Part shown: positions 20,646 to 31,074 of the stretch, one piece after another
Numbering within the stretch: position 1 is the first letter of the stretch
Layout of the letters: each line of letters begins with the position of its first letter
Assembly (NCBI GenBank): GCA_026785945.1
Contig: JAJAZD010000047.1
Coordinates: 1 to 32,506 of the forward strand
From: Pseudonocardia sp.
Lineage (GTDB): Bacteria > Actinomycetota > Actinomycetes > Mycobacteriales > Pseudonocardiaceae
DNA length: 32,506 bases
Direction of reading: 5' to 3'
Notes under the pieces: generated by a model
The model's database searches: none
What the model saw: only the letters and a program-made list of their open reading frames with translations
Told to the model about the DNA's origin: nothing
Program-made: the position numbers and the translations under genes

Positions 20646-21119
20646 TCAGGTGAAGATGATCTGGCCGCCGGCGGCGAGGTCGTAGAACTCGCCCACGGTG
20701 ATGATGTCCTTGACCTGGTCGACGAAGTCGTCCTTGGACAGCTCGAACAGGTCGACCGAGGCCTTGCAGGCGTAGAGCCCGGCCCCGGTGTCGGCGATCA
20801 TCTCGACGAACTCCGGGATCGAGGGGATGTCGAGCTTCTCCATCCGGTGGCTCATGTACTGGGTCATCACGCTGGACACGCCCGGCAGGCCGCCGGCCCA
20901 CGTTGCGAGATGCAGGCCGGGGTTGCCGACGGTGGCGAGCTTGATGTGCTCGTGGCGCTGCCGATGGATCGCGTCGAGGCCGAAGAAGGTGAAGAACAAG
21001 TTGGCCTCCATGCCCTCGGCACGGGCTCCGTTGGCCATGATCAAACCTGGGTAGATGCCTTCCAAGGAACCCTTGGATATGACGATCGAGACCTTTTCGA
21101 TCTTGCCGGTGTCCGGCAT
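20646..21119 (-). CDS. DsrE/DsrF (DsrE2-like) family protein
   Basis: KVSIVISKGSLEGIYPGLIMANGARAEGMEANLFFTFFGLDAI...IPEFVEMIADTGAGLYACKASVDLFEL. Confidence 0.88.
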   Translation of the reverse strand: MPDTGKIEKVSIVISKGSLEGIYPGLIMANGARAEGMEANLFFTFFGLDAIHRQRHEHIKLATVGNPGLHLATWAGGLPGVSSVMTQYMSHRMEKLDIPSIPEFVEMIADTGAGLYACKASVDLFELSKDDFVDQVKDIITVGEFYDLAAGGQIIFT

Positions 21120-21149
21120 GGTGGCGTCCTCACGATTGTCGCGTCGGGG

Positions 21150-21467
21150 TCAGATGCAGCCGCGGGGCTTGGGGATCCCGGCGATCCTCGCGGCGAGCTT
21201 GGCCGGTCCCTTGGGGAAGAGCAGGTAGAGTTCCTTGATGCTCACGCCGGAGGTGCGACCCAGCGCGCGCACGGTCGGGCCGGTGCCCTTCCCGGCGAAC
21301 TCCTTGCGCATGTGCATGATGACCTGCCAGTGCCGGTCGGTCAGCACGTCGATGCCGGCGTCGCGGGCGATCTCCGGAGCCATGTCCTCCCGCCACTGGT
21401 CGGGGTCGAGGTAGAAGCCCTCCTCGGTGACGGTGACGGGTGTACCGGCGTAGACGGCAGTGGGCAT
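21150..21467 (-). CDS. TusE/DsrC family sulfur relay protein (single conserved C-terminal Cys)
   Basis: VTVTEEGFYLDPDQWREDMAPEIARDAGIDVLTDRHWQVIMHMRKEFAGKGTGPTVRALGRTSGVSIKELYLLFPKGPAKLAARIAGIPKPRGCI. Confidence 0.9.
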   Translation of the reverse strand: MPTAVYAGTPVTVTEEGFYLDPDQWREDMAPEIARDAGIDVLTDRHWQVIMHMRKEFAGKGTGPTVRALGRTSGVSIKELYLLFPKGPAKLAARIAGIPKPRGCI

Positions 21468-21498
21468 GGCAGGCTCCAGGTTCTGTGGCGCAGGTGTC

Positions 21499-22746
21499 TC
21501 AGCTGCGGGTGGGGACGGGCATGTGCTTGCCGGCCGTGGGCATGGCGGCGGTGAGCCCGGGGACGTCACGTCCGGGCAGCAGGCTGTGCCAGTAGAACCA
21601 GGCGAACATCAGCTTGCCGAGGTGGTTGAGCCGCGACGGCGAGAGAAGCGGCAGCCCGACCCCGGAGGGGTAGTGGCCCGGCAGCGGTTCGGTGTCGTAG
21701 TTGAAGTCGATCAGCATCGCCTTGCCGAAGCCGCTCTCGATGAAGCAGTTGGTGTGCCCGTCGAAGGAGGCGTCGAGCGCCTCTCCGGCCAGGAACCGCA
21801 CCACGTTGCGGGCGATGGTCTCGCCCTCGAAATGGGTGACCGACCCGGCCTTGGAGGTGGGGATCGCGGCGGCGTCGCCGATGACGAACACGTTCGGGGC
21901 GGCCGTCGACTGCAACGTGTGCTTGTCGGTGGGGACGAAGCCGAACTCGTCGCCCAGACCCGGTGAGCGGTCCACATAGGCGGCGCCACCGTGCAGCGGC
22001 ACCACGACGGCCAGGTCGAACGGGACCTCCCGGCCGTCGTAGCCGACCAGGCGGCCGCCGGTGCCGTCGACCTCGCCGGTGTTGAACTCGGTGACCAGCT
22101 CGACGTGCTTCTCGGCCAGCAGCCCCGAGAGCGTGCGGGCGGCGACGGGCTTGGTGAAGGCCGCATCCAAGGGGGTGACGTAGATCAGCTCCACCTGTTC
22201 GCGGATCCCACGTTCGGTGAAGTACCAGTCGGCCAGGAAACAGAACTCCAGAGGGGCGACCGGGCACTTGATCGGCATGTCCACGACGTTCACCACCAGC
22301 CGCCCACCGGTGAAGCGCGACAGCGCCCCTTCCAGGGCGGTCGCACCGTCGAGGTCGTAGAAGGTGTGCACGGTCTCCCGCGCGCCGGGCCCGGTCAGGC
22401 CCTCGGTCTCCTCCGGCAGCAGCCGAGCACCCGTGGCGACGACCAGCACGTCGTATGCCAGCGTCACGCCGTCCGACAGCAGCACCTGCTCCGCGCCGAG
22501 GTCCACGCGCTCGATGTCCGCCGTGCGGTAGGTGATGCCGTCGTGCAGCTGCGCGGGCCGGGACCGCACCAGATCCTGCGGCCGGGACAGCCCGAACGGC
22601 ACGAACAGCAATCCGGGCTGGTAGAGGTGGTCGTCGTCCTGGTCGACCACCGTGATCACGACCTCGTCACCGAGGTCGCGACGCAGCCGATTGGCCGCGA
22701 GGGTGCCGCCGGTGCCACCGCCGAGTACCACGATCCGGTTCGTCAC
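21499..22746 (-). CDS. FAD-dependent sulfide:quinone oxidoreductase-like NAD(P)/FAD oxidoreductase
   Basis: TNRIVVLGGGTGGTLAANRLRRDLGDEVVITVVDQDDDHLYQPGLLFVPFGL...DVLVVATGARLLPEETEGL...DMPIKCPVAPLEFCFLADWYFTERGIREQVELIYVTPLDAAFTKPVAARTLSGLLAEKHVELVTEF...TLQSTAAPNVFVIGDAAAIPTSKAGSVTHFE. Confidence 0.9.
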   Translation of the reverse strand: MTNRIVVLGGGTGGTLAANRLRRDLGDEVVITVVDQDDDHLYQPGLLFVPFGLSRPQDLVRSRPAQLHDGITYRTADIERVDLGAEQVLLSDGVTLAYDVLVVATGARLLPEETEGLTGPGARETVHTFYDLDGATALEGALSRFTGGRLVVNVVDMPIKCPVAPLEFCFLADWYFTERGIREQVELIYVTPLDAAFTKPVAARTLSGLLAEKHVELVTEFNTGEVDGTGGRLVGYDGREVPFDLAVVVPLHGGAAYVDRSPGLGDEFGFVPTDKHTLQSTAAPNVFVIGDAAAIPTSKAGSVTHFEGETIARNVVRFLAGEALDASFDGHTNCFIESGFGKAMLIDFNYDTEPLPGHYPSGVGLPLLSPSRLNHLGKLMFAWFYWHSLLPGRDVPGLTAAMPTAGKHMPVPTRS

Positions 22747-22869
22747 GATCCCCAGTGTCGGGCCGACCCCGCGGCTCGCCGAGAGCCGAAAGTCCCGTTC
22801 CCGGACGCCGGAGGTCGGTACTTCTCCTGGCGACCTGGTTGCCCGGGTCGGCACCTGGTGCTCGCCGGT

Positions 22870-24318
22870 TCAGGTGACCACCACGGTGGCCATCATCCCG
22901 GCGTCCTCGTGGTCGAGGATGTGGCAGTGGTAGACGCTGCGCCCAGCGAACGTGGTGAACGGGATCCGCAGCCGCACCCAGCCGCGGGGCGGGATGAGCA
23001 CCACGTCCTGCGGCGTGCCGGTGGTGGCACGGCCGTCGCTGGCGGCGGTCACGGTGAAGGGCCACACGTGGATGTGGAACGGGTGGGCGAGCGGGCTGGT
23101 GTTCGTGACGGTCCATTCCTCCGTGCTGCCGAAGGCGACGATCTGGTCGTCGCGGGAAGGGTCGAAGGTGCGACCGTCGATCGACATGGCCATCCCGCCG
23201 CCCATGCCGCCCATGCCCATGTTGAAGTCCGTCTGCCGTGTCCGGGAGATCGCTGTGGTGGGGAGGGTCTCGGCAGGAAGGACGGCCGGTAGTGGCGTGG
23301 AGGCACGGAGCGGGCCTGAGGTGATCAGCGTGGCGAGGGTGGTGGGCCCGGTGTCGCCGGTGCTGCTGCCCATCATGGAGCCGCGGTCGTAGGGGTCGGC
23401 GAGGAGCGCGAACCGGCCGGTGCCGGTGGGCTGGACGACGACGTCGGCGCGGTTGCCCGGGGCGAGGACCAGCGTGTCGCGGCGGGTCGGCCGTGAGAGG
23501 AACGACCCGTCCTGGGCGATCTGGACGAGCTGCTGGCCCTCGAGGCGCAGCGCCAGGACCCGGGAGGTGCAGGCGTTGACGATCCGCCAGCGCTCCGCGG
23601 TTCCGGGTGCGGCGCTGAGGATGGGCTGGTGCTGGCCGTTGACCAGCAGCAGCCGCCCTTCGCGGCCCATGGCGCGGTCGGTGGAGTTGGCTGGGACGAC
23701 GGCTCCGGCGCCGTCGAGGGTGATATCGGTGACGAGCATCAGCCGGTCGGTGGTGACGGGCAGGTCGGGGCCGCGGTCGACGATCAGCCCGCCCACCAGT
23801 CCGCCGAAGAGCTGGTCGGCGACCATGCCGTGGTGGTGCGGGTGGTACCAGTGGGTGCCGGCCGGGTGGTCGGCGGGGATCCGGTAGAGGTAGTCGAACG
23901 ACGCCCCGGGTTCGATGCTCACGAAGGGGTTGTCGCTGTTGGCCTGCGGGGACACGTGCAGGCCGTGGGTGTGCAGGTTCGTCGGCTGCACGAGCCGGTT
24001 GGTCAGCAGCACGGCGAGCTCGTCGCCGGGGCGCACCCGCAGTGTCGGGCCGGGGGAGCCGCCGTTGAAGCCGAGTGCGGAGGTGTCCCGGCCGGCCAGG
24101 CGGACGCCCGCGGCCGCGGTCAGCTCGACGGCCAGCCGGCCGTCGCGACTGTCGAGCAGCGGCGGCTGGAGGAGTTCCGCGCCGGTGCCGCTGGGGTCGA
24201 AGGCGCCGGTGCTCGCGGTGGCGCTCGCGATCCACCCGGTGGCTCCGGCGACCACCACGGCCGTGCCGAGGCCGCCGAGGGCCAGCGCGCGGCGGCGGCT
24301 GATCGGTGCCGGTGTCAC
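22870..24318 (-). CDS. Multicopper oxidase with Tat-like signal
   Basis: SRRRALALGG signal; PTNLHTHGLHVSP, GTHWYHPHHHGMVADQLFGG, HPFHIHVWPF, YHCHILDHEDAGMM copper motifs; Met-rich MGMGGMGGGMAM loop. Confidence 0.95.
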   Translation of the reverse strand: MTPAPISRRRALALGGLGTAVVVAGATGWIASATASTGAFDPSGTGAELLQPPLLDSRDGRLAVELTAAAGVRLAGRDTSALGFNGGSPGPTLRVRPGDELAVLLTNRLVQPTNLHTHGLHVSPQANSDNPFVSIEPGASFDYLYRIPADHPAGTHWYHPHHHGMVADQLFGGLVGGLIVDRGPDLPVTTDRLMLVTDITLDGAGAVVPANSTDRAMGREGRLLLVNGQHQPILSAAPGTAERWRIVNACTSRVLALRLEGQQLVQIAQDGSFLSRPTRRDTLVLAPGNRADVVVQPTGTGRFALLADPYDRGSMMGSSTGDTGPTTLATLITSGPLRASTPLPAVLPAETLPTTAISRTRQTDFNMGMGGMGGGMAMSIDGRTFDPSRDDQIVAFGSTEEWTVTNTSPLAHPFHIHVWPFTVTAASDGRATTGTPQDVVLIPPRGWVRLRIPFTTFAGRSVYHCHILDHEDAGMMATVVVT

Positions 24319-25062: not shown

Positions 25063-25945
<883 letters not shown>

Positions 25946-26066: not shown

Positions 26067-27452
26067 TCAGTTCGCGGTCTCCCGCGTCGCGAGGCCGAGC
26101 TCCTGGGCGTGGGGGAACTCGTCGGCGAGGAGGACGACGTCGAAGCCGGCGCGGTCGAGGAGGCTCGCGCCGATGGAGGCGCGGTAGGCGCTCTGGCAGT
26201 GCACCCACAGCTGCCGGTCCGGGATCTCGCCGAGGCGGTCGGCGAGCTCGGGGAGCGGGATGTGCAGGGCCCCGTGGATGTGCGACGCGGCGTACTCGTC
26301 GTCGCGGCGGACGTCGAGGATCACCGGGTCCTCACCGCGGTCGCCCCGCCCGGCCTGGAGGTCCTCGAAGGTCGCGGTGGGGTAGCTGCGGGTGGGTCGC
26401 CCGTCGGCGAGGACGTCGATGGTGCCGGTGGCCCGGCCCTCGGGGCGGTCGATGCCGATCCGCACGAGCTGGCGCTGCGCCTCGGCGACCTGGTCCGGGT
26501 TCTCGCCGATGAGGGTGAGCGGGGTATTCCAGGGGATGACCCAGCCGAGCCAGGTGGCGAACTGCGGGCCGAGGCCGATCCCGACGCTGCCGGTGAGGTG
26601 CTCGGCGGCGTAGGCGGTGCGGTCGCGCAGGTCCACCACCCATTCCCCGGCCGCGATGCGCTTGGCCAGCTCACGCGGTTCGAGGATGGGCAGGGGGGAG
26701 AGGTCGATCTCGCCGGGCCCGGCGAGGTTCGCCGGGGCCATGTGGGCGTAGTACGCGGGGTAGGCGGTGAGGCCGGCGACGAGGCGGGTGACGAAGGCGT
26801 CCTCGTCGGGTTCGAGAACGGCGTCGTTGCGGGCGCGCTCGTCGGCGATGGTGCCGCCTGGTCCGCCGACGGCTGGTCCGGCGGAGCAGAAGCTGCCGAA
26901 CCCGTGGGTCGGGTAGACCGCGGTGTCGCCGGGCAGGGTCTGGGCGAGGTGGCGGGTGGAGTGGTACTGGGCGCGGGTGAGCTCGTCGGTGCGGGCCGGG
27001 TCGACGAGGTCGGTGCGCCCGACGCTGCCGTAGAGCAGGGACCCGCCGGTGAACACAGCCAGGGGCGCGGTCGCGTCGGGTGTGTTGTCGCTGAACACGT
27101 ACGCGAGGTGGGTGAAGGTGTGGCCCGGGGTGGCGATCACGCGCACGGTCATCGTCCCGGCGTGCAGCTCGTCGCCGTCGTGCACGGCGACCCGGTCGAA
27201 GGCGACGGGGTCCTCTGCGTTGACGACGTAGCGGGCGCCGGTGCGGGCTGCGAGCTGGTAGCCGCCGGTGACGTAGTCGTTGTGGATGTGGGTCTCGACC
27301 ACCATCTCCAGCCTCAGGCCACGCCGGGCCAGCAGCGCGTCGATGCGGTCGATGTCGCGCTGCGGGTCGACGACCACCGCGACGGAACCGTCGTGCGCGA
27401 GGTAGCTGCGGTCCCCGAGCTCCTCGGTGGCGATCACTTCGACATTCAGCAT
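26067..27452 (-). CDS. CstB-like MBL-fold persulfide dioxygenase fused to rhodanese domains
   Basis: MBL motifs THIHNDYVTGG, TPGHTFTHLAYV, VFTGGSLLYGSVGRTDLV, YPTHGFGSFC; a central rhodanese-like domain lacking the active-site Cys; C-terminal rhodanese with WVHCQSAYRASIGASLLDRAGF. Confidence 0.93.
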   Translation of the reverse strand: MLNVEVIATEELGDRSYLAHDGSVAVVVDPQRDIDRIDALLARRGLRLEMVVETHIHNDYVTGGYQLAARTGARYVVNAEDPVAFDRVAVHDGDELHAGTMTVRVIATPGHTFTHLAYVFSDNTPDATAPLAVFTGGSLLYGSVGRTDLVDPARTDELTRAQYHSTRHLAQTLPGDTAVYPTHGFGSFCSAGPAVGGPGGTIADERARNDAVLEPDEDAFVTRLVAGLTAYPAYYAHMAPANLAGPGEIDLSPLPILEPRELAKRIAAGEWVVDLRDRTAYAAEHLTGSVGIGLGPQFATWLGWVIPWNTPLTLIGENPDQVAEAQRQLVRIGIDRPEGRATGTIDVLADGRPTRSYPTATFEDLQAGRGDRGEDPVILDVRRDDEYAASHIHGALHIPLPELADRLGEIPDRQLWVHCQSAYRASIGASLLDRAGFDVVLLADEFPHAQELGLATRETAN

Positions 27453-27469: not shown

Positions 27470-27481
27470 ATGTCCGTACAT
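27470..27481. promoter_or_regulatory. GntR operator candidate ATGTCCGTACAT
   Basis: 18 nt upstream of the CstB-like start; same 12-mer at 27618, near-identical at 28976. Confidence 0.75.
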
Positions 27482-27617
27482 AGCGCTGTCGAAGGTAGGC
27501 GCACGGAGTGACGAGGTCAACCAGATCGGCACCGCGCGAGGGCGAAATCGCCGCGGTCGGGCCGGACGCTCGACGGTATCCGACCTTGTGGTCTCACTCA
27601 CCGGAAGCTACGTTCAG

Positions 27618-27629
27618 ATGTCCGTACAT
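27618..27629. promoter_or_regulatory. GntR operator candidate ATGTCCGTACAT
   Basis: Exact copy of the 27470 motif, about 20 nt upstream of the SQR remnant ATG (27649). Confidence 0.75.
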
Positions 27630-27648
27630 TTAACCGATAGGAGCGGCC

Positions 27649-28526
27649 ATGGCAGGGCACAAGATCGTCGTCGTCGGTGGGGGGGGCAGTGCGGGCCTCA
27701 CCGACGACGCTCGACTCAAGCGCCAGGGGCGGACCGACGTCGCGGTCATCGACCCCGCATCGACGCACTACCACCAGCCGCTGTGGACGTTGGTCGGCGG
27801 CGGCCGCGCACCGGTCGAGGCCAGTGTCAAGCCGCAGTCGAAGGTCATGCCGAAGGGGGTGGCCTGGATTCAGCGGGCCGCCGTCGGCGTCGATCCCCGA
27901 CGCCGAGCAGGTGATGCTCGACGACGGCTCCAACGTCGGCTACGAGTACCTGGTCATGTGCCCGGGCATCCAGCTGGACCGGGAGAAGATCACCGGCCTG
28001 GGCAGACCCTGGGACGCGACGGGGTGTCGAGCAACCACCTCTACGAGCTCGCCCCGGCCACCTGGAAGTTCATCCGCGACACCCGCTCGGGCACGGCGAC
28101 GTTCACGATGCCGTCCGGGCCGATCAAGTGCGCGGGTGCGCCGCAGAAGATCGCGTATCTCGCAGCGGACTACTGGCGGGAGCAGGGCGTGCTGGACAAG
28201 GTGGACATCCACCTGGTGCTGCCCACTCCGGGGATGTTCGGGGTCAAGGAGTTCTCCGACGTCCTGGTATGCGTGGCGAAACGCTACGGCATCACGGTGC
28301 ACCTGCAGAGCGAGGCGATCAGCGTGAACCCCGACGCCCGCGAGGTGACCATCGCCGACCTGGAGTCTTCTTCACCCAGTTCGGCGCGGACTGCGGCGGG
28401 ACCATGTGCATGACGTCGTAGCCCAGCGTGGACTCAATGTCGTTCGAGCGACGGGACATGTGGTACCTCAAGCGCTATGGGCTCCCCGCGCTCTACTGGC
28501 AGGGCATGCTCCGCGGGGTCGCCTGA
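27649..28526 (+). pseudogene. sqr (remnant): Second sulfide:quinone oxidoreductase (type II-like), frameshifted with internal deletion
   Basis: KIVVVGGGGSAGLTDDARLKRQGRTDVAVIDPASTHYHQPLWTLVGGG; middle DAEQVMLDDGSNVGYEYLVMCPGIQLDREKITGL in another frame; then SSNHLYELAPATWKFI...SGPIKCAGAPQKIAYLAADYW...EVTIADLES; C-terminal tail MSFERRDMWYLKRYGLPALYWQGMLRGVA* at 28437-28526. Confidence 0.85.
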
Positions 28527-28975
28527 ACGGGCAGCGGTCCTGCACGCTCAGAACGGCACAGAGGCCGTGTGTGCTGCCCGCACGGCCTCGGAGATCCGGT
28601 CCAGGAGACGACGGGGAGGTCTCGTCGATTCGCCGAGGCGGCTGTCCTGGTCCTCGGCGGGAGTCCGGTGGTCTTGTGTGCGGGACGTGGCGGAGGCGTC
28701 GTGTGGGGTGCCGGTCGTGCTCATGAGTGCGGGTGCTTCCTGTCGGACGACGTGTTGGGCGCAGGGTGGCGCGGACCGCGAGGTCAGCGGGACCGGGGGC
28801 ACGTCCGACAGCGACGGTCGTCGACCGACAGCTGATCCGTCGCGAGCAGGCACACGCAGAACGTGTGTCGCGTCGAGGCGAGCGCTGCCGTCACGATGTC
28901 ATTCGACCACCTGCGGCGACCGGCATGCAACGTGTCAGCGCCGTCCGCGTCGCAGTTTCTTGCTGCCGCCAGAAA

Positions 28976-28987
28976 ATGACCGTACAT
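28976..28987. promoter_or_regulatory. GntR operator candidate ATGACCGTACAT within AAAATG-N6-CATTTT
   Basis: Inverted repeat AAAATG/CATTTT about 20 nt upstream of the gntR start. Confidence 0.7.
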
Positions 28988-29008: not shown

Positions 29009-29848
29009 GTGGCAGAGGAGCGGGTGACGGTGGGTGAGAGCAGCGGCGCGAGACTGGAGAACGACGCGAGCCCGCAGGCTCTGCTGCGAGGCGACGGCCC
29101 GTTGTGGCTTCAGCTGCTCACCGATCTGCGCCGCCGCCTCGAGCGTCGGTCGTTCGACCACCACTTCCCCGGCGAGCTGGAGTTGGTCGAGGAGTACCAG
29201 GTCAGCAGGGCCACCGTTCGCCAGGCGTTGCGCGTCCCGCGGGAGGAGGGCGTTCTCGTCGCCGGGAGTGGGCGGGCCCCTCGGGTGGTCGAGCCGGTCG
29301 AGATCGCCCAGCGGATCGGGTCGATCTACAGCCTCTTCGAGTCGGTCCAGGCCAGCGGGCAGAAGCAGCGCGGCGTGATCTGTGCGCTCGACGTCCGTCG
29401 GGACGGGCTGATGGCGACCCGGCTGGGACTCGAGGAATCGACCCCCCTCGTCCATCTGGAACGGCTCCGGCTCGCCGGGCCCGAGCCACTGACCCTGGAC
29501 AAGGTGTGGATGCCCGAGCGGATCGCCGCACCGCTGCTGGACGTCGAGTTCACCCACACCGCCCTCTACACGGAGTACGCCCGGCTGTGCGGGGTGGCGA
29601 TGACCACCGGCGAGGAGCACATCCGGGCGGTCGTCCCGACACCGGCGGAGCAGCGGCTGCTCGGCATCACCCCGGACGTCGCGCTGTTCGCGATCGAGCG
29701 CGTCGGCTGCTCCCACGGCCGCCCCGTCGAATGGCGCCACACCCTGGTGCGCGGCGACAGGTTCACCGTCACCGCCGACATCGCCGCCCACGACGGCTAC
29801 CGCCTCCAGCAGGTGGAGGGCGGTCTCCTCGGCCTCGCGAACACCTGA
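29009..29848 (+). CDS. GntR family (HutC/UTRA-type) transcriptional regulator
   Basis: LWLQLLTDLRRRLERRSFDHHFPGELELVEEYQVSRATVRQALRVPREEGVLVAGSGRAPRV then UTRA-like IGSIYSLFESVQASGQ...LVHLERLRLAGPEPLTLDKVWMPERIAAPLL...; GTG start assumed. Confidence 0.9.
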   Translation: MAEERVTVGESSGARLENDASPQALLRGDGPLWLQLLTDLRRRLERRSFDHHFPGELELVEEYQVSRATVRQALRVPREEGVLVAGSGRAPRVVEPVEIAQRIGSIYSLFESVQASGQKQRGVICALDVRRDGLMATRLGLEESTPLVHLERLRLAGPEPLTLDKVWMPERIAAPLLDVEFTHTALYTEYARLCGVAMTTGEEHIRAVVPTPAEQRLLGITPDVALFAIERVGCSHGRPVEWRHTLVRGDRFTVTADIAAHDGYRLQQVEGGLLGLANT

Positions 29849-29887
29849 CCGCACCGACACCCGATGACCGCCTCCGGAAGGACCCCG

Positions 29888-30223
29888 ATGACCAGCACCG
29901 ATCCGATCGCCCAGATCGACCCGACCACGGCGAGCGAGTTGGCCGACAGCGGCGCGCTGCTGCTCGACGTCCGTGAGCCCGAGGAGTGGCGGGTCGGGCT
30001 CATCGCCGACGCCGTGCACATGCCCCTCGGCGACCTGCAGCCGGATTCCGTGCCACGCATCGTGGTCGCGGTGTGCCGGTCGGGCAACCGATCGGGCAAG
30101 GCTGCCATCCAGCTCGCGGCCGCCGGTGTCGACGTCCGCAACATGGCCGGCGGCATGAAGGCCTGGGCCGAGACCGGGCTGCCGATCACCACCGACGACG
30201 GCACACCGGACACGGTCGGCTGA
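29888..30223 (+). CDS. Single-domain rhodanese
   Basis: ALLLDVREPEEWRVGLIADAVHMPLGDL...VVAVCRSGNRSGKAAIQLAAAGVDVRNMAGGMKAWAETGLPI. Confidence 0.95.
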   Translation: MTSTDPIAQIDPTTASELADSGALLLDVREPEEWRVGLIADAVHMPLGDLQPDSVPRIVVAVCRSGNRSGKAAIQLAAAGVDVRNMAGGMKAWAETGLPITTDDGTPDTVG

Positions 30224-31074
30224 TGATGGTCCTGGCGGCCGCGCTCGGCCTGGTGATGGGCCTGGTCATCGGAGCACTCGGTGGCGGGGGTGGGGTACTG
30301 ACCGTCCCACTGCTGGTCTACGTCCTCGGGCTCACCGCACAGAGCGCCACGACCAGCAGCATCATCATCGTCGGCATCACCGCCCTGTTCGGCACCCTCG
30401 CGCGGCTGCGCGGCAAACTGATCGACTGGCGCACCGGACTGATCTTCGGGGTCCTCGGTATCCCCGCCGCCTACCTCGGCACCCTGCTCAACCACGCTGT
30501 CGAACAGCGGGTGCTACTGCTGGCCTTCGCCACGATCACCATCGTCGCCGCGATCGCCATGCTGCTCAACAACAGATCCGGTGCCCCCGAACCCGACATC
30601 ATGCCTGCCGACCCCGGTTCACCGGGGAGCGCCAGTGGCGCCGCCACGTCGATGACCTCGCGCACCGCGGCACAGGTGGCCACCCAGCGGCACCAGTTGC
30701 TCGCCACCGCCGCCAAGGTCGTCCTCAGTGGTCTGATCGTCGGGTTCATGACCGGGTTCCTCGGCGTGGGCGGCGGGTTCCTCGTCGTCCCGGCGCTGGT
30801 GATCATTCTGCGGGTACCGATGACCTACGCCATCGGTACCTCACTGCTGATCATCACGCTGAACTCGGTGTCGTCGATGGCCTCCCGGCTGGGATCCCCA
30901 CTGCACCTGGACTGGCGGATCGTCGTCCCGTTCACCCTGCTCGCCGTGGTCGGAAGCCTGCTCGGCAAGCGTGTCGCCGACAAGTGCTCCGGCGACGCCC
31001 TGACCAAGGCGTTCGCCGTGATGCTGATCCTGGTCGGCGGCTACGTCGCCGCACAGACGCTGGGCGTGCTCTGA
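30223..31074 (+). CDS. TauE/SafE family sulfite/organosulfonate exporter
   Basis: GLVMGLVIGALGGGGGVLTVPLLVYVLGLTAQSATTSSIIIVG...SGLIVGFMTGFLGVGGGFLVVPALVIILRVPMTYAIGTSLLIITLNS; ATGA overlap with the rhodanese. Confidence 0.95.
   Translation: MMVLAAALGLVMGLVIGALGGGGGVLTVPLLVYVLGLTAQSATTSSIIIVGITALFGTLARLRGKLIDWRTGLIFGVLGIPAAYLGTLLNHAVEQRVLLLAFATITIVAAIAMLLNNRSGAPEPDIMPADPGSPGSASGAATSMTSRTAAQVATQRHQLLATAAKVVLSGLIVGFMTGFLGVGGGFLVVPALVIILRVPMTYAIGTSLLIITLNSVSSMASRLGSPLHLDWRIVVPFTLLAVVGSLLGKRVADKCSGDALTKAFAVMLILVGGYVAAQTLGVL

Follow-up and report, generated by a model that had tools for sequence, protein, structure and literature searches.

A GntR/HutC-type regulator and palindromic operators predicted to govern sulfide and persulfide oxidation genes in Pseudonocardia and other Actinomycetota

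The dedicated bacterial regulators of sulfide and persulfide metabolism CstR, SqrR/BigR, and FisR sense their signals by cysteine chemistry (PMC9774590). Among Streptomyces genomes with a persulfide dioxygenase (PDO) gene, a CsoR-like gene is found nearby in 773 of 1248 (PMC7533328), which leaves many actinobacterial PDO genes without an assigned regulator. In Salmonella, the transporter YeiH confers sulfite resistance under the control of the sulfite-binding regulator YeiE (PMC12880088). For regulators of the GntR/HutC type, the HutC operator has the consensus NyGTMTAKACNy with the core GTMTAKAC (PMC4494728), and in NagR, Arg48 reads G-4 and Arg38 reads G-5 of the operator, while Arg133 and Arg135 hold the phosphate of the effector (PMC4333415). 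Searches of open-access papers found no UTRA-type GntR protein tied to sulfide oxidation or to PDO, TauE, or rhodanese genes, in keeping with the remark in a preliminary description of the DNA studied here that such a protein is an unfamiliar class of regulator for this pathway.

The window, by which we mean the whole stretch of 32,506 nucleotides that was analysed from a contig of Pseudonocardia sp., was described as carrying three palindromes, at 27470, 27618, and 28976, placed ahead of a CstB-like gene, the remnant of an SQR gene, and a gntR gene. The sequences and coordinates proved exact, and the distances to the start codons were measured as 17, 19, and 36-42 nt, respectively, the last depending on whether the probable GTG start of gntR is at 29024 or 29030. 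The genes and putative operators of the locus, by position in the window, are as follows.

25469..25945, minus strand: fragment of a YeiH-type (Cons_hypoth698) transporter gene, 158 aa of about 340 (Pfam PF03601 positions 103-219 of 304)
26067..27452, minus strand: predicted CstB-like PDO, metallo-beta-lactamase plus rhodanese, 461 aa (Pfam; PDB matches)
27470-27481: operator 1, ATGTCCGTACAT, exact match, ahead of the PDO ATG (27452, minus strand); kept in the nearest relative, G316
27618-27629: operator 2, ATGTCCGTACAT, exact match, ahead of the ATG of the SQR remnant (27649); kept in G316
27649..28523, plus strand: SQR pseudogene, whose pieces share 61-74% identity with the intact SQR at locus L074
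28976-28987 (AAAATGACCGTACATTTT): operator 3, ATGACCGTACAT within AAAATG-N6-CATTTT, exact match
29030..29848 (GTG start at 29030 or 29024), plus strand: gntR, GntR/HutC regulator with a UTRA domain, 272 aa (Pfam; model matches NagR/YvoA, PhnF, and DasR)
29864..30223, plus strand: single-domain rhodanese of the gntR operon (Pfam Rhodanese, E 4e-14)
30223..31074, plus strand: TauE/SafE-type exporter of the gntR operon (Pfam TauE, E 1e-47)

The PDO gene is divergent from gntR and upstream of it, while the rhodanese and tauE genes lie downstream of gntR in the same direction, and the order gntR-rhodanese-tauE is kept at four other loci (L041, L042, L049, and L252). The three palindromes are very likely the binding sites of the adjacent GntR/HutC (UTRA) regulator, so that regulator and operators would together define a regulon. 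The operator core is an imperfect palindrome in which the arms ATGT and ACAT flank C-CG-T, one arm of site 3 containing TGAC, and operators 1 and 2 are separated by 148 bp. Across the 4.46 Mb of the genome, operators 1 and 2 are the only exact copies of the 12-mer ATGTCCGTACAT, and allowing at most one mismatch adds only operator 3 and three other places. When up to two mismatches are allowed in the window alone, there are six matches against 1.6 expected, a modest excess; two of the six come from reading sites 1 and 2 on the reverse strand. All three operators form islands of 14-15 bases identical to those of G316 (L041), within intergenic DNA that is otherwise poorly conserved, and operator 2 is conserved in G316 although the SQR gene has decayed in both genomes. 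In relatives, the ATGACCGTACAT form is also the most frequent of those preceding gntR (14 of 28 sites).

The product of 26067-27452 matches PDB entries 3tp9 (1.5e-62) and 3r2u (4e-42) along almost the whole of its length, with a weak Lactamase_B match in Pfam (19.7 bits against a cut-off of 22.7) and a C-terminal Rhodanese domain (64.3 bits). It thus has the CstB-like order of a metallo-beta-lactamase followed by a rhodanese domain and is predicted to be a persulfide dioxygenase. The SQR region at 27649-28523 has no intact reading frame over the whole enzyme; its pieces are spread over at least two frames, and some of the C-terminal half has been lost. In G300, a PDO gene (86% identical) faces an intact SQR gene with one operator ahead of each, which looks like the undecayed arrangement, and the intact yeiH genes of relatives bear the operator. 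A second, apparently intact sulfur module lies at 20646-22854 on the minus strand, next to a multicopper oxidase gene (22870-24318), and encodes DsrE-like, DsrC/TusE-like, and type III-like SQR proteins, the last a match to NF049943, for which a 374-aa part scores 511 bits (cut-off 525). No operator was found beside this module, and its presence may be what left the operator-linked SQR free to decay. In G312 (L206, 7315-7669), only two partial pieces of the gntR homologue appear, alongside an SQR gene that is intact, and both have kept their operators, another sign of turnover at the locus.

The regulator itself has an N-terminal GntR winged helix-turn-helix (HTH) and a C-terminal UTRA domain of the chorismate-lyase fold. 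Pfam gives 101.1 bits for UTRA (cut-off 23.8), and the GntR HTH, at 26.1 bits, narrowly misses its cut-off of 27. An AlphaFold model built on a 26-sequence alignment (mean pLDDT 79.7) matches YvoA/NagR over its full length (4u0v, TM 0.7-0.8) as well as PhnF and DasR, the effector domains of the latter two matching at TM 0.85-0.89. The protein falls far below the cut-offs of the named HutC equivalogs in NCBIfam (HutC, PhnF, TreR, and others), with the best scores being 90.2 bits against 220 for TIGR02018 HutC and 64.5 against 156.8 for PhnF. Its fold also differs from the CsoR, ArsR, or Fis folds with conserved sensing cysteines that mark reactive-sulfur regulators. Among 52 GntR sequences, the HTH residues R60, T62, and R64 are invariant, as are S101, Y180, and the pair R145/R147, which aligns with NagR Arg133/Arg135, while no cysteine is invariant. 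C187 is present in 30 of the 52 and in 15 of the 19 sulfur-linked members, and the yeiH-linked clade and some of the members linked to PDO have Thr or Ala there instead. The GntR of the window departs from nearly all others, its nearest relative among them, at four positions, with P70, S80, G115, and T155 in place of L/M, R, S, and A, and may therefore be an impaired copy. Added to the decayed SQR gene and the fragmentary yeiH gene, these residues suggest a local system that is partly decaying. The same genome encodes a second GntR (G000:C3:28138-28857, L046) that is 63% identical and belongs to a clade with neither sulfur genes nor operators nearby. It shares the HTH residues of the window GntR and may act on the same operators. 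A scan of contigs with single peptides found one distant Ligilactobacillus protein only.

The 82 operator sites that were collected give the consensus AATGTMCGKACATT, which has the features of a GntR/HutC-type palindrome, with GT and AC 4 nt apart (GT-N4-AC) around a CG centre. By the gene downstream, these sites divide into 28 before gntR, 23 before PDO, 13 before YeiH, 10 before TauE, 6 before SQR, and 2 before rhodanese genes, counts that are partly biased, as many of the sites were first fetched with more specific patterns, but with which the protein-fetched loci agree. Two positions were left free in the scans, and these were A/C in 79 of 82 sites and G/T in 78 of 82. Relative to the HutC consensus, the spacing and the M/K positions are kept, and the TA centre is replaced by CG. 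In the alignment, the equivalent of NagR Arg48, R60, is invariant (52/52), and the position equivalent to Arg38 (position 50) is never Arg, while the operators have G-4 and T-5; the pairing of this GntR with AATGTMCGKACATT is therefore supported, since a kept R60 and the lack of Arg at position 50 fit G-4 and T-5. Where genus sites are linked to a gene, the asymmetric AATGACC form is oriented towards gntR or tauE (19 of 20 cases) and away from PDO (10 of 11). Tandem operator pairs spaced 23-25 bp apart are found ahead of gntR and yeiH (L076, L078, L090, and L095-L097, beside yeiH) and in Rhodococcus plasmids (L249 at 4804/4827 and 6400/6423; L250 at 4798/4821), and this spacing of about two helical turns suggests cooperative binding of two dimers. 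Two variant patterns were also observed. Sites of the form AATGACCGGACATT in genus genomes (L158, L161, L167, L178, L193, and L195) lie mostly near non-sulfur genes, such as those for class V aminotransferases and CLC channels, and once 115 bp ahead of a Cds1 cysteine desulfhydrase gene; AATGACCGGACATT is perhaps the site of a related GntR. The form AATGACCGTACATT occurs in three genus genomes (L172, L186, and L198) beside an MFS transporter gene or at its start; the encoded proteins are similar (assigned by Pfam for L172 and by resemblance for L186 and L198), and this transporter may belong to the regulon as an additional exporter.

Searches across genomes link the motif both to sulfur genes and to the regulator. 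Exact ATGTCCGTACAT was found at 46 sites in 300 family genomes, compared to 10 for the reversed pattern; by a hand count, about 26 of the 46 adjoin SQR, PDO, TauE, YeiH, or GntR homologues, and about 20 are not beside the six query genes. In 64 genus genomes, AATGWCCGNACATT gave 63 sites (57 distinct once duplicates were removed) compared to four for the reversed-pattern control. Of the distinct sites, 35 lie no more than 94 bp upstream of a gntR (11), PDO (11), tauE (9), yeiH (3), or rhodanese (1) gene, linkage counts that come from related genomes and are not independent. The remaining 22 are not beside query genes; in some cases, the gene that follows is a different one of the rhodanese type, as identified by Pfam for L182 and only by resemblance for L207. 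In 80 genomes of other families, AATGTMCGKACAT was present in 7 of the 15 with GntR and 4 of the 65 without it (Fisher p=4e-4), and the sites adjoin sulfur genes in six of the seven GntR-bearing genomes and in none of the four that lack GntR. One GntR-bearing genome (locus L221) has a second, unlinked AATGTMCGKACAT site ahead of a rhodanese-PDO pair.

The regulator has a homologue in 61 of the 64 genus genomes and, at E<=1e-45, in 16 of 347 class genomes. Seven distant loci (L129, L130, and L134-L138) combine a GntR with PDO, SQR, and/or TauE genes and an operator-like site, and a sister GntR clade (tree support 95/91) adjoins yeiH and has either a single operator or two, spaced 24-25 bp from each other. 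Two genus genomes without GntR, G301 and G321, have kept PDO genes and have no operator. Many genus paralogues (L046, L048, and L050-L060) have neither operator nor sulfur genes nearby, and the linkage is therefore not general to this GntR group. Six named plasmid loci, from Embleya sp., Rhodococcus jostii RHA1 (pRHL1), R. pyridinivorans, Mycobacterium adipatum (pMYC1), R. qingshengii, and R. erythropolis, were fetched by the GntR protein alone; all six have PDO and TauE genes, four have SQR, and each has one to four operators, compared to no more than 0.25 expected. The GntR proteins annotated at these loci are labelled only "GntR family transcriptional regulator". On pMYC1 (L251, 7762-10654), an operator is followed in one direction by genes for a rhodanese, TauE, a sulfite oxidase, and a thioredoxin-domain protein, apparently a full route from persulfide to sulfate. 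Motif and sulfur genes thus co-occur beside orthologous gntR genes throughout these searches, from the genus and the family to further families of actinobacteria and to Rhodococcus, Mycobacterium, and Embleya plasmids, a pattern whose absence the preliminary description had named as refuting its idea. This co-occurrence supports its prediction of a GntR-controlled sulfide-oxidation regulon. Of the regulon content it named, the sites at PDO and SQR stand, with the SQR here being a pseudogene, and the regulon would also take in tauE, rhodanese, and yeiH-type genes.

The regulon that we propose would operate as follows. A GntR dimer would bind the operators close to the start codons and most likely repress PDO, the now decayed SQR, and its own gntR-rhodanese-tauE operon, as well as yeiH in relatives. 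An effector bound in the UTRA pocket would release GntR from the DNA, and the persulfide-oxidising and sulfite/thiosulfate-exporting proteins would then be made when their substrates or products build up. The basis for this model lies in the sequence, namely operator identity, conservation, position, and linkage, the regulator fold, and the retained anion-binding arginines. DNA binding, repression rather than activation, and the identity of the effector are what we infer, with repression assumed because of the GntR family and the operator position. We hold the explanation as a whole, comprising operators, repression by GntR, release by a UTRA effector, and sulfur-gene targets, to be likely. 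It is improbable that the palindrome is instead bound by another regulator, such as a CsoR or ArsR protein or an unlinked GntR paralogue, with the adjacent gntR being merely one of its targets. Five genomes (G105, G204, G222, G296, and G300) do have the motif at sulfur genes without an adjoining gntR, but they carry GntR elsewhere, and action in trans would suffice. Some Rhodococcus and Mycobacterium loci have CsoR-type genes nearby, but a CsoR-type site can be rejected, as the known S. coelicolor CsoR site, ATACC-n6-GGTAT (PMC7533328), is unlike the operator here, which has the HutC form and, at G-4/T-5, matches the GntR residues. The GntR paralogue has the same HTH residues, yet it would still be a regulator of the same GntR type, and motif and GntR co-occur across genomes. 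The modest window-only count at two mismatches would be compatible with a chance repeat without function, an idea to which we give practically no weight, as it is ruled out by genome-wide uniqueness, cross-genus conservation, and linkage.

As for the effector of the proposed GntR regulon, we tentatively favour an oxyanion, either sulfite or thiosulfate, because these are the common denominator of the targets: PDO and rhodanese produce them, and TauE and YeiH presumably carry them. PhnF, by sequence the closest solved relative, held sulfate in the pocket matching R145/R147 (PMC4918961). However, the UTRA arginines serve phosphosugar or phosphate ligands in other members, so sulfur oxyanions are not singled out. 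An organic anion, such as an organosulfonate, S-sulfocysteine, a mycothiol derivative, or a phosphorylated metabolite, could act on the same regulon, a doubtful but credible reading: known UTRA domains bind sugar phosphates, alkylphosphonates, histidine, and fatty acids (PMC4494728, PMC4333415), and the arginine pair would hold any ligand bearing a phosphate or sulfonate. The conserved neighbours, on the other hand, are inorganic-sulfur genes (PDO, SQR, rhodanese, TauE, and YeiH, with sulfite oxidase on pMYC1), and no organosulfonate catabolic genes were seen at the loci examined. It is unlikely that GntR is a thiol switch of the same regulon in which persulfidation of UTRA C187, perhaps with C227, causes release as in CstR and SqrR. 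The window GntR has several cysteines, C187 is frequent among the sulfur-linked members, and the known sulfide/persulfide regulators of these genes use cysteines, but CstR, SqrR, and FisR use two or three of them (PMC9774590), C187 is not kept throughout the family, and the anion-binding arginines are invariant. A family-wide cysteine switch is disfavoured because no cysteine is invariant. With sulfite or thiosulfate as the favoured effector, these proteins might, as a tentative and more specific proposal, constitute an undescribed GntR/HutC subfamily that senses sulfite/thiosulfate by oxyanion binding rather than cysteine persulfidation and switches on sulfide/persulfide oxidation and sulfite efflux. 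The subfamily appears to be spread over several actinobacterial families and to be carried on Rhodococcus and Mycobacterium plasmids.

Such a regulon would be under a family unrelated to CstR, SqrR/BigR, and FisR, possibly with sensing of products. With AATGTMCGKACATT as its operator and R. jostii RHA1 (pRHL1) as a named laboratory strain, the proposal is open to direct test, and the operator also offers a route to further sulfur genes in Actinomycetota. In comparison with known systems, the protein family and the operator architecture are familiar, and the novelty appears to lie in the function, the sequence of the operator, and the probable signal. NagR (YvoA), DasR, and PhnF share the GntR HTH and UTRA fold, the GT-N4-AC operator, the Arg that reads G-4, and the phosphate-binding Arg pair, but here the targets are sulfide/persulfide oxidation and sulfite-efflux genes, the operator centre is CG rather than TA, T-5 replaces G-5, and there is no Arg at the NagR Arg38 position. 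The S. coelicolor ScCsoR circuit (PMC7533328) likewise has actinobacterial PDO, rhodanese, and sulfite transporter (TauE) targets, but ScCsoR is a CsoR-family sulfane-sulfur regulator whose fold and ATACC-n6-GGTAT operator are unrelated to those of GntR. CstR of S. aureus, SqrR/BigR, and FisR (PMC9774590) also exert transcriptional control over sulfide/persulfide detoxification genes, but these belong to the CsoR, ArsR, and Fis families and sense via two or three cysteines, in contrast to a GntR without an invariant cysteine. Finally, the Salmonella YeiE-YeiH system (PMC12880088) pairs an autoregulated, sulfite-responsive regulator with the adjacent yeiH, just as the sister GntR clade adjoins yeiH with an operator, but YeiE is a LysR-type activator, and both the protein and its site are unrelated to those of GntR.
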